DNA from: Carnobacterium viridans
Lineage (GTDB): Bacteria > Bacillota > Bacilli > Lactobacillales > Carnobacteriaceae
Direction of reading: 5' to 3'
Assembly: GCF_900102725.1 (NCBI RefSeq)
Contig: NZ_FNJW01000008.1
Coordinates: 124,001 to 188,000 of the forward strand
Length of the DNA stretch: 64,000 nucleotides
Under the pieces are notes generated by a model. It searched no databases, was not told the DNA's origin, and saw nothing but the letters and a program-made list of their open reading frames with translations. The translations under genes and the position numbers were made by a program. This document shows positions 6,735 to 10,141 of the stretch, piece by piece (position 1 is the stretch's first letter; each line of letters begins with the position of its first letter).

Positions 6735-7684
6735 TAAAAATCGTATTTATGGGAACTCCTGCATTTTCCGTTCCAATTTTAGAAGCATTGATTGATTCAG
6801 AGTATGAAGTGGTTGCAGTAGTCACACAACCGGATAGACCAGTAGGGAGAAAGAAAATCTTAACAGCTTCACCTGTTAAGGCTGCTGCGGTCCAGCACGA
6901 TTTACCCGTTTTTCAACCAGAAAAAATTTCAGGTTCTCCTGAAATGGAGACACTGATTGCACTTGAACCAGATCTGATCGTTACTGCAGCGTTTGGTCAA
7001 TTTCTACCACAAAAATTATTATCTGTTCCTAAATATGGAGCAATCAATGTACATGCTTCTTTGTTGCCTAAGTATCGTGGTGGTGCTCCAGTCCACTATG
7101 CTCTTATGAAAGGCGAAAAAGAGACAGGTGTTTCTATTATGTATATGGAGAAAAAAATGGATGCAGGAGATATACTCGCACAAAAATCCTTAGATATTAC
7201 CCGTAACGATGATGTTGGAACGTTATTTGATCGTTTAAGTGCTTTAGGTAAAGACTTATTAATGGACACTTTGCCTAAATTATTGGCTGGAGACATCACG
7301 CCAGTAAAACAAAACGAAGAGGAAGTTACTTATTCGCCAAATATTAAACGTGAAGAAGAATTAGTGGATTGGACTAAAACAGCAGCTGAAGTCGATTATC
7401 AAGTTCGTGGCTTGCGTCCTTGGCCAGTAGCGTATACTTTATTAGAAGGAAACAGACTTAAGTTATGGGATGTGACACCTACTGAAGAAAAAACAACAGC
7501 CGTTCCGGGAACCATTATACGGATTGAAAAAGAAGCAGTCTATATAGCTTGTGGAGATCAGACAGTTGTAAAAATAAATGAAGTTCAACCAGCTGGGAAA
7601 AGTAAAATGACTGTCATGGCTTTTTTAAGTGGAGTAGGCAGCCAACTAAAAGTTGGAGAAAAGGTAGGGTCAAATGGAAACTAA
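6731..7684 (+). CDS. fmt: Methionyl-tRNA formyltransferase
   Basis: This 317-residue enzyme formylates Met-tRNA(fMet) with 10-formyl-THF so that translation can start. The N-terminal catalytic domain shows M-G-T-P-A-F-S-V, the formyl-THF signature HASLLPKYRGGAPV, and G-V-S-I-M-Y-M with the catalytic Asp in M-D-A-G-D-I-L. The C-terminal OB-like domain (about 205-317) has VRGLRPWPVAY. It overlaps def by 4 bases and rsmB by 11 bases, which indicates a tightly coupled operon. Confidence 0.97.
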   Translation: MIKIVFMGTPAFSVPILEALIDSEYEVVAVVTQPDRPVGRKKILTASPVKAAAVQHDLPVFQPEKISGSPEMETLIALEPDLIVTAAFGQFLPQKLLSVPKYGAINVHASLLPKYRGGAPVHYALMKGEKETGVSIMYMEKKMDAGDILAQKSLDITRNDDVGTLFDRLSALGKDLLMDTLPKLLAGDITPVKQNEEEVTYSPNIKREEELVDWTKTAAEVDYQVRGLRPWPVAYTLLEGNRLKLWDVTPTEEKTTAVPGTIIRIEKEAVYIACGDQTVVKINEVQPAGKSKMTVMAFLSGVGSQLKVGEKVGSNGN

Positions 7685-9050
7685 TCAAACACCTGAAAAA
7701 AGAAATGTTAAGAAAACAAGTCGTTATTTAGCGATGTCGATTTTGGAACGAACAGATAAAACGGGTTCGTATTCGAATTTATTAATCAACGAAGCCATTC
7801 AAAAAAATAAACTAAGTGCAGCTGATGCGCGCTTATTAACAGAATTGGTATATGGTGTTCTGCAGCGTAAATTAACACTGGACTTTTACTTGTCTCCATT
7901 TTTAGATGAAGGCAAGAAAATTGATGTGTGGGTACGAAATCTACTAAGATTGTCCATTTATCAAATGATTTATTTAGATAAAATTCCAGTTCATGCCATT
8001 TTATTTGAAGCTGTTGAAGTAGCTAAGAAAAAAGGTCACGTTGGAATCAGTAAATTTATAAATGGAGTTCTAAGAAATGCTGACCGTAAAGGATTCCCTA
8101 GCGTTGAAAAAATCGCAGACCCAATTGAACGTTTAAGCATTGAATTGAGCATGCCAAGATGGCTAATAGAGAAATTCACTGCAGATATTGGATTAGAAGA
8201 AACGAGAAAAATGGGTGAGTCGTTACTCCGTCCGAGCCATTCAAGCGCACGAGTAAATAAGAAGTTTTTGACCGTTGAAGAAGCGTTAGAAGCTATGGAA
8301 GAAGAAGGATTCGATGTTCGTGAAAGTGTTATTTCTCCAGTTGGTATCATCAGTGATGGTGGGCACTTTGCTTCTTCACCATTGTTTCAATCTGGACAAT
8401 TAACAATTCAAGATGAGTCTTCTCAATTAGTTGCACCAGCTTTACAACTTGAACCACATCATCAAGTATTAGATGCTTGTGCTGCTCCAGGTGGTAAAAC
8501 AACCCATATCGCTTCTTACTTATCTGCTGAAGAAGGCGGAAAAGTAACGGCGCTTGATCTTCATGAACACAAAGTGGCTTTGATTACAGAAAATGCCAAA
8601 AGAATGCATGTAGAAGATGTAGTGACAGCAATGAAATTAGATGCCAGAAATGTAGATCAAGAGTTCTCAGACGAACAATTTGACCGTATACTAGTAGATG
8701 CGCCGTGTTCTGGTTTAGGTTTAATGAGACGTAAGCCTGATATCAAGTACACTAAAAAAGAAAAAGATATGTTGAATCTTCAAAAAATACAACTTGGTAT
8801 TCTAGAACAAGTAGCTCCAAAACTAAAAGTAGGTGGACTTTTAGTTTACAGTACGTGTACAATAGCAAATGAGGAAAATAAAGAAACGGTTGAGAACTTT
8901 TTAGCGGCACATGCTGATTTTGAAAAAGTTCCTGTTAGAACTGAAGAATCACTATCAGGTTGCCTGAAAGACGGATTTCTTCAACTTTATCCGCATGATT
9001 TTGGAACAGACGGCTTTTTTATTAGCTGCTTAAGAAAAATACAGAACTAA
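7674..9050 (+). CDS. rsmB: 16S rRNA (cytosine967-C5)-methyltransferase
   Basis: A 458-residue fusion of an N-terminal NusB-like RNA-binding domain (about 15-150) with a C-terminal Sun-type m5C methyltransferase. The SAM-binding motif reads LDACAAPGGKTTHIA, and the two catalytic cysteines are in DAPCSGLG and YSTCT. Length matches RsmB. The ATG at 7674 lies inside the end of fmt and is preceded by AGGTAGGG. It is the last gene of the coaBC-priA-def-fmt-rsmB series; no classical terminator follows directly, but a structured region starts at 9089. Confidence 0.96.
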   Translation: METNQTPEKRNVKKTSRYLAMSILERTDKTGSYSNLLINEAIQKNKLSAADARLLTELVYGVLQRKLTLDFYLSPFLDEGKKIDVWVRNLLRLSIYQMIYLDKIPVHAILFEAVEVAKKKGHVGISKFINGVLRNADRKGFPSVEKIADPIERLSIELSMPRWLIEKFTADIGLEETRKMGESLLRPSHSSARVNKKFLTVEEALEAMEEEGFDVRESVISPVGIISDGGHFASSPLFQSGQLTIQDESSQLVAPALQLEPHHQVLDACAAPGGKTTHIASYLSAEEGGKVTALDLHEHKVALITENAKRMHVEDVVTAMKLDARNVDQEFSDEQFDRILVDAPCSGLGLMRRKPDIKYTKKEKDMLNLQKIQLGILEQVAPKLKVGGLLVYSTCTIANEENKETVENFLAAHADFEKVPVRTEESLSGCLKDGFLQLYPHDFGTDGFFISCLRKIQN

Positions 9051-9088
9051 ACTTAGGTTAAATCAACGAGAATAAAACAACTAATATT

Positions 9089-9246
9089 GGGAATGAGAGA
9101 ACAAATCTTTGGACTTGAATTAGTCGATACAGACTTTCTCTTTACTATTTCAGGGTAGGAGAGGTCTAAAACTGAAAAATGGTTAGTCGATCATTAAGAT
9201 ACAGGTTTGATATTTTCTTTCATTCCCTTTTGTGTTGTCTTTTTTA
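9089..9246 (+). ncRNA. Candidate structured RNA in the rsmB-stp gap
   Basis: The 329-base gap between rsmB and stp holds no plausible gene. Bases 9089-9100 (GGGAATGAGAGA) can pair with 9216-9227 (TCTTTCATTCCC) over 12 bp with one G-U. The inner strands 9102-9107 and 9204-9209 extend this by 6 bp after a bulge. Inside is a second helix (AGACTTTCTC 9131-9140 with GAGAGGTCT at about 9160-9168, one bulge). The closing stem is followed by TTTTGTGTTGTCTTTTTT, so the 3' end looks like an intrinsic terminator. The 8-mer TTAGTCGA occurs twice inside. No known RNA class was recognised. It could be a small RNA or the 3' end of the rsmB transcript. Confidence 0.45.
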
Positions 9247-9268
9247 TACTTGTTGTGTGTTTAAATTT

Positions 9269-9320
9269 CTGTATCATTTCACTAAGGCTTGCTTATTCAA
9301 GCCTTAGTGAAATGATACAG
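9269..9320. repeat. Perfect 23-bp inverted repeat upstream of stp-prkC
   Basis: The left arm 9269-9291 (starting CTGTATCATTTC) and right arm 9298-9320 (ending GAAATGATACAG) are exact reverse complements around a 6-base loop. Neither side is followed by a T-tract on its reading strand, so it does not look like a terminator. It lies 60 bases before the stp start. Confidence 0.85.
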
Positions 9321-9379
9321 ATCGTTGATGGTCAGTAAAAAATAATGGAATGATTTATTGAAAGGTATGTGGTGGAACA

Positions 9380-10141
9380 ATGGAAGTTGTATTTCGCAGT
9401 GATACCGGCAAGAAGAGGAAAAACAATCAAGATTTCGCCGGTTATTTTATAAATAAACAAAATGTTACATTGGCAATTTTGTGTGATGGGATGGGTGGAC
9501 ATCGAGGTGGAGATGTGGCTAGTGAAATGGCCGTTTCGCATTTAGGTCATTCATGGGAAGAATCTGATGTTCAAAATGCTGAGCAGATCACACAATGGAT
9601 GTTAACACGCATCAGTCGAGAAAATAAACGCATCCTTGAAAAATCACGCAAATTTTCTGATTTAGAAGGAATGGGAACAACACTTGTTGCTACAGCACTT
9701 GTAGAACAAGAATTTGTGATAGCGAATATTGGCGACAGTAGAGGGTACCACTATACTGGAGGGCGTTTAAGCCAAGTGACAGAAGACCATTCATTGGTCA
9801 ATGAATTGCTTAAAAGTGGAGAAATCTCTTCAGAAGACGCTGAAAATCATCCTAGAAAGAATGTGTTGACTCGTTCTTTGGGTGTTACAGATGAGATAGA
9901 TATTGATGTAACCATTTTACCAGCCTTACCTAACGACCAAATGTTGCTCTGTTCAGATGGATTGACAAATATGGTTGAAGATGAAGCGATAAAGGAAGTT
10001 TTAAGTACTCAAAAATCACTAGATGAAAAGGTTGAAACGCTAATTACTATGGCTAATGAGCATGGAGGTTATGACAATATAACCATTATATTAGTTCATA
10101 CAAATGCAGAAGGGAGGGGTAGCATTCATGGAAATAGGTAA
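9380..10141 (+). CDS. stp: PP2C-type Ser/Thr protein phosphatase
   Basis: A 253-residue Mg/Mn-dependent phosphatase of the PrpC/Stp family that reverses phosphorylation by the adjacent PASTA kinase. The metal-binding motifs are visible: R-S-D-T-G near the N-terminus, CDGMGGHRGGDVAS, ANIGDSRGY, CSDGLTNMV and GGYDNITIILV at the C-terminus. Length is typical. The ATG has GGTGG upstream. prkC starts inside the end of this gene (14-base overlap), so the pair is co-translated. Targets in relatives include cell-wall and division proteins; none can be named from here. Confidence 0.95.
   Translation: MEVVFRSDTGKKRKNNQDFAGYFINKQNVTLAILCDGMGGHRGGDVASEMAVSHLGHSWEESDVQNAEQITQWMLTRISRENKRILEKSRKFSDLEGMGTTLVATALVEQEFVIANIGDSRGYHYTGGRLSQVTEDHSLVNELLKSGEISSEDAENHPRKNVLTRSLGVTDEIDIDVTILPALPNDQMLLCSDGLTNMVEDEAIKEVLSTQKSLDEKVETLITMANEHGGYDNITIILVHTNAEGRGSIHGNR

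Follow-up and report, generated by a model that had tools for sequence, protein, structure and literature searches.

A probable rsmB-operon terminator with an enlarged, branched loop upstream of stp in Carnobacterium viridans

The structured element found between rsmB and stp at positions 9089 to 9246 of a 64,000-nucleotide stretch of the Carnobacterium viridans genome (hereafter, the window) is probably an intrinsic terminator that ends the rsmB operon, with a branched domain of about 110 nt in place of the usual short loop. The pairing of its closing stem (P1) with compensating changes, the T tract adjoining this stem, and the compact hairpins present at the same place in four relatives were computed here. 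We infer that the element terminates transcription, that its helices form in a given order, and that the exact sequence of the enclosed domain matters little or not at all for function.

The upstream gene (ORF 7674-9050, plus strand, stop codon 9048-9050), which we take to be rsmB encoding a 16S rRNA m5C methyltransferase, from what is known of this family and from the name given in the first-pass annotation, was matched by tblastn at 64-97% identity in 17 other genomes of the family. The downstream gene (ORF 9380-10141, plus strand, ATG at 9380), presumably stp encoding a prpC-type protein phosphatase on the same two grounds, had a match in all 18 family genomes, that of C. viridans included. 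The two genes adjoin each other in each of these 18 genomes, and 329 nt separate the rsmB stop from the stp ATG in C. viridans.

Closing stem, T-rich tract and enclosed domain

On the plus strand, the 5' arm of P1 (9089-9101) is predicted to pair with its 3' arm (9215-9227) over 13 bp, with a single G-U (9097-9219) and 113 nt enclosed. The stem was predicted in C. viridans and in its sister species (G002), whether or not 100 nt of rsmB were included on the upstream side, and pair probabilities were 0.89-1.00. Directly 3' of P1 lies a T-rich tract (9228-9246, plus strand), with 14 T in 19 bases, which was taken as the terminator tail. The first-pass annotation had described a stem of 12 bp with one G-U, bracketing about 115 bases and ending in a U-rich tract; the stem, its G-U, the approximate span, and the tail were all recovered here, but both the fold and a scan for long stems (see below) gave a length of 13 bp.

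The predicted interior consists of P2, a weak P2b, P3, and the hairpins P4 and P5 placed on a three-way junction, in agreement with the at least two more helices that had been perceived inside the stem. P2 (7 bp, 9102-9108 with 9203-9209, plus strand) has a probability of 0.65-0.75 in C. viridans and of 0.39-0.89 in the sister species, and is set apart from P1 by a 5-nt bulge on the 3' side; it is the helix previously seen as a 6-bp extension, one pair longer than had been thought. The repeated sequence also mentioned at that stage is TTAGTCGAT, with copies at 9120-9128 and 9183-9191. Three occurrences were counted in the window against 0.56 expected, and as many were obtained in 2 of 100 shuffles. 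The pairing of these two copies around the self-complementary core TCGA forms P3 (9123-9128, within the first copy, with 9186-9191, within the second, plus strand), whose probability is 0.44-0.50 in C. viridans and 0.84-1.00 in the sister species. The corresponding values for P5 (4 bp, 9170-9184, plus strand) are 0.37-0.43 and 0.93-0.97. P4 (9131-9167, plus strand) is not preserved pair for pair, its C. viridans pairs having a probability of 0.00-0.49 in the sister species, where another register is adopted.

The MFE of the element was -43.6 kcal/mol, compared with -31.1 +/- 3.9 kcal/mol for 200 dinucleotide shuffles (z = -3.21), one of which was as good. Two of 200 shuffles were as good when flanks were included (9080-9260, z = -2.67, dinucleotide shuffles), and the same number for the counterpart in the sister species (z = -2.71). 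In a scan of both strands of the 64 kb for stems 12 bp or longer that have a loop of 60-160 nt and then a T-rich tract, the element was the sole site, with two nested hits. Since the same scan on one strand of shuffled sequences gave at least one hit in 7 of 40 cases (mean 0.2), P1 alone is just moderately surprising and no more than suggestive. Its retention with compensating changes in the sister species is stronger evidence than the rarity of the stem.

Conservation of the pairing and distribution among relatives

The pairs of C. viridans and of the sister species were compared with a null in which the same substitutions (31 in 153 columns) were relocated at random in 20,000 trials, with P values uncorrected for the number of tests. 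All 13 pairs of P1 are kept in the sister species, two of them through double and two through single compensating changes, and random relocation kept 13 P1 pairs in 2.1% of the trials when the C. viridans pairs were used, or 4.0% with those of the sister species; this comparison for covarying pairs shows a conserved P1, but in one relative only. Of the 50 pairs in the whole C. viridans fold, 44 survive (null 37.6, P = 0.0025) and five carry double changes (null 1.2, P = 0.002), and the sister-species fold gave 42 of 47 pairs kept (null 37.6, P = 0.02) and four double changes (null 0.78, P = 0.004). Within the interior, 31 of 37 pairs of the C. viridans fold are kept (P = 0.09), with three double changes versus 0.83 expected (P = 0.039), and 29 of 34 pairs of the sister-species fold (P = 0.24), with two versus 0.56 expected (P = 0.10). 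This excess of double changes makes some structural constraint on the interior possible. The RNAalifold consensus contains 47 pairs, six with double changes and none broken, and was fitted to the same sequences, so it is not independent. The independent free folds (50 pairs in C. viridans and 47 in the sister species) have 30 pairs in common, those of P1, P2, P3, and P5, but not those of P4.

At the sequence level, the interior is 77% identical between the two species (84/109) and the stem arms 77-79%. All 18 aligned bases of the T tail are identical, with one gap, and the five-prime flank is 84% identical (32/38). Because four-fold degenerate sites are identical at 84% in rsmB (147/176) and at 79% in stp (71/90), the interior is no more alike than such sites, and no sequence constraint beyond this neutral yardstick was seen.

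When 98 genomes were searched at the DNA level, 44 of them had matches at E <= 0.1. Among the matches listed, only those of C. viridans and of the sister species extend over the greater part of the query (the latter at 78% identity, query positions 4-176), and the others were fragments of 17-71 nt, which we take as chance matches. A covariance model, R1, was built from these two species, a two-sequence model being insensitive, and was used with strict filters. When 295 genomes of the order were searched, 16 were matched at E <= 1, and scores above 28 bits were restricted to C. viridans and the sister species (180 and 173). The remaining 16 matches listed score at most 27.3 bits; 12 of them span 39-64 nt, too short for the interior, and four span 84-136 nt, with E of 0.3-0.7. 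Under these strict filters, R1 matched none of the four remaining members of the genus. When R1 was applied to the 18 family gaps and the window, full matches on the plus strand were again those of the two sister species alone, and the opposite strand of the element scored 22-28 bits; the stem is near-symmetric, and pairing alone therefore does not fix the strand. The whole element was found in two of the six species of the genus and in 2 of 18 family genomes, and its restriction to two of six species speaks against a riboswitch and against an sRNA of old origin.

The length of the rsmB-stp gap is 183-329 nt in five genomes of the genus and, in G004, 128 nt to the first matched stp codon (residue 43), while outside the genus it is 20-46 nt in 10 of 12 genomes and 125 nt in G008 and G013. 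In each of the six genus members, a hairpin bordered on its 3' side by a T-rich stretch is predicted in this gap. The long stem encloses 113 nt in C. viridans and 110 nt in the sister species, and the terminator-like hairpins of the other four have loops of 4 nt (G005), 6 nt (G001), 4 nt (G004), and 17 nt (G003), that of G003 being longer than the compact hairpins of the three others. MAFFT aligned the G003 hairpin with the 3' half of the long element only, which leaves the history of loop growth uncertain; the alignment of the genus gaps is poor and shows a shared position, but not base-by-base homology. In G004 (L049), the stp match lacks about the first 42 residues and one TGA in frame was reported, so that stp may be disrupted in this genome, or the assembly may contain an error there.

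Conservation within the gap is highest in a feature separate from the element. A perfect 24-bp palindrome with a 6-nt loop (9268-9321) begins 22 nt after the T tract, upstream of stp, and 64 of the 66 bases of its region (9262-9327) are identical in the sister species. Five of the six genus members carry it, each at a single place, in the rsmB-stp gap, and it is absent in G004. The only other matches in the family at E <= 0.01 were seven 29-nt pieces in G010, and a search of plasmids gave no match. Inspection by eye showed a paired exchange of A-T to C-G in the arms in G005 and also in G003, where there is one mismatch as well; the loop in G001 is the reverse complement. The lowest E-values in one of the permissive Rfam searches (0.0014) were those of microRNA-precursor models on this palindrome, which we take as hairpin resemblance. 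As no T-rich tail follows, it is not a plain terminator, and it may protect the 5' end of the stp-prkC mRNA as a hairpin or serve as an operator.

Alternative readings of the element

That the layout is not that of the T-box, FMN, SAM, or lysine elements or of 6S RNA had been proposed from the sequence, and the Rfam searches agree with this view, since no Rfam family matches the element. At the gathering score, nothing was found for it in the whole window, and permissive searches with the element, its flanks, and the sister-species counterpart gave matches far under the gathering scores. The only gathering-score match in the window is an FMN riboswitch (RF00050, 59858-59981, 103.9 bits). 6S RNA (RF00013) is likewise a long rod shut by a terminal stem, but it has no match in the window, and the 6S RNA of this genome is located elsewhere (G000:C8:24508-24695, 76 bits). 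The Listeria sRNA RF01461 (rli24) gave a full-length match over 9089-9235 that was insignificant (13.1 bits versus a gathering score of 100, E = 7.5); it was unlisted when 9085-9246 was searched alone and in the sister species, and was treated as chance.

A 23-codon TTG frame (9087-9158, inner ATG at 9093) lies over the 5' half of the element, and the same length is open in the sister species. By eye, 10 of the 23 residues differ and only two codons change synonymously, and no Shine-Dalgarno sequence was seen at the TTG or at the inner ATG; a short peptide was thus rejected, with moderate weight rather than as a matter of proof. Two further pairings were also discarded. One joins the 3' arm to the stp leader (9220-9226 with 9347-9353, in a repeat); it shows one compensating change and one broken pair in the sister species (by eye), and it would form only once the polymerase is past the T tract. 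The other is the complementarity of GATACAGA (9126-9133) to an arm of the palindrome, which is not kept in the sister species (by eye).

It is unlikely, on the evidence gathered here, that the element is a 3'-UTR-derived sRNA, in which an RNase would free a stable, trans-acting fragment of about 140-160 nt, the terminator role being retained and the interior being functional. The long stem closes both ends of such an RNA, the fold is stable in both species, P1, P2, P3, and P5 are common to the two independent folds, and there is some surplus of compensating changes in the interior, but P4 is not preserved, the interior does not exceed four-fold degenerate sites in identity, and searches of the four remaining genus members did not recover the element. 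Like 3'-UTR-derived sRNAs, it follows a coding gene and has a terminator-like 3' end and a compact fold; its narrow distribution and the level of conservation of its interior set it apart from them. We consider as doubtful the related proposal of a young, lineage-specific, trans-acting sRNA drawn from the rsmB terminator loop, its three-way junction having been gained in the ancestor of the two sister species. If this were true, each termination event would yield a closed, stable 3'-UTR RNA.

An independently transcribed sRNA with its own promoter, which the first-pass annotation had preferred to a plain terminator, is very unlikely. The size and shape of the element would suit such an RNA, and a -10-like TAATAT was noticed by eye at 9083-9088, but this motif is not kept in the sister species and would start transcription inside the stem, and promoter-like sites in 8900-9500 are at the level of shuffled sequences (2 versus 2.0). 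In this interval, the sigma-70 scan reported no site immediately 5' of 9089; the nearest sigma-70-like site on the plus strand is located at 8920-8949, inside rsmB. What remains of the earlier proposal is a structured region whose P1 pairing is conserved in one relative, whereas its independence is not supported, in view of the compact hairpins of the relatives, the result of the sigma-70 scan, the unconserved TAATAT, and the near-neutral interior.

A cis-acting leader or riboswitch controlling stp-prkC expression would account for a position upstream of stp and a terminator-like end, but it is highly improbable, given that the element accompanies the adjacent rsmB and stp genes in only 2 of 18 family genomes, that 133 nt lie between the end of its tail and the stp start codon, that no Rfam match was obtained, and that no alternative antiterminator was noticed in an informal look.

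The sister species has the 9-mer AACTAAAAA twice, at the element's 5' edge and within the interior (L045:1203-1211 and L045:1294-1302), and G003 has it once in the gap (by eye); the copies may lie at the borders of a past insertion or deletion. That the terminator loop simply holds a functionless, decaying or inserted sequence (a small mobile element or a local duplication) is most unlikely: its presence in two sister species only and the AACTAAAAA pattern are as expected from insertion or deletion between short repeats, but the closing pairing is maintained, the DNA search of its own genome gave no second copy apart from one weak 36-nt match, and plasmids and phages gave no match, so that a mobile repeat was rejected. 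A search of viral contigs with one exact 24-letter pattern (two N) also gave no match.

The element as a probable terminator variant

A terminator with an enlarged loop fits what the comparisons show: the stem is kept and the T tract fixed, the interior is near-neutral, and the relatives have compact hairpins. As in intrinsic terminators, a stable stem, held here by compensating changes in one relative (G002), is directly followed by a T-rich tract 3' of a gene, and compact hairpins are found in that gap in four related species; the difference is that the element encloses 110-113 structured nt and not a short loop. In an excerpt of one published study, more than 90% of the identified hairpins have loops of fewer than 13 bases, and rare stem-loop combinations were discarded (PMC8355165). 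With 113 nt, the loop of the element departs from the usual short-loop property as given in that excerpt (under about 13 nt); since a short loop is a usual property and no strict definition, the element was classed as a terminator variant. It was not reported by a simple terminator scan with a loop limit of 3-8 nt, and nothing on an rsmB-stp element was found in the literature titles and abstract openings searched.

In such an enlarged-loop terminator, the interior would fold locally during transcription (P4, P5, P3, and P2), and the folded interior would draw the distant arms of P1 together. P1 would then zip as its 3' arm emerges from the polymerase, and the RNA would be released in the T-rich tract. 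The terminator may leave a stable 3'-UTR RNA, and the excess of double changes in the interior, a feature of the two-species comparison, would be the sole hint that the 3' end, once released, functions as a separate RNA.

If the element is an efficient terminator, a loop of more than 100 nt would be tolerable when the enclosed RNA folds first, and scans with short loop limits, like the one used here, would miss terminators of this type. New small RNAs could then also arise from such a terminator; otherwise, the element is an ordinary 3' end. These observations also call for caution, as a striking intergenic fold seen in just one genome may be a terminator that has become elaborate.
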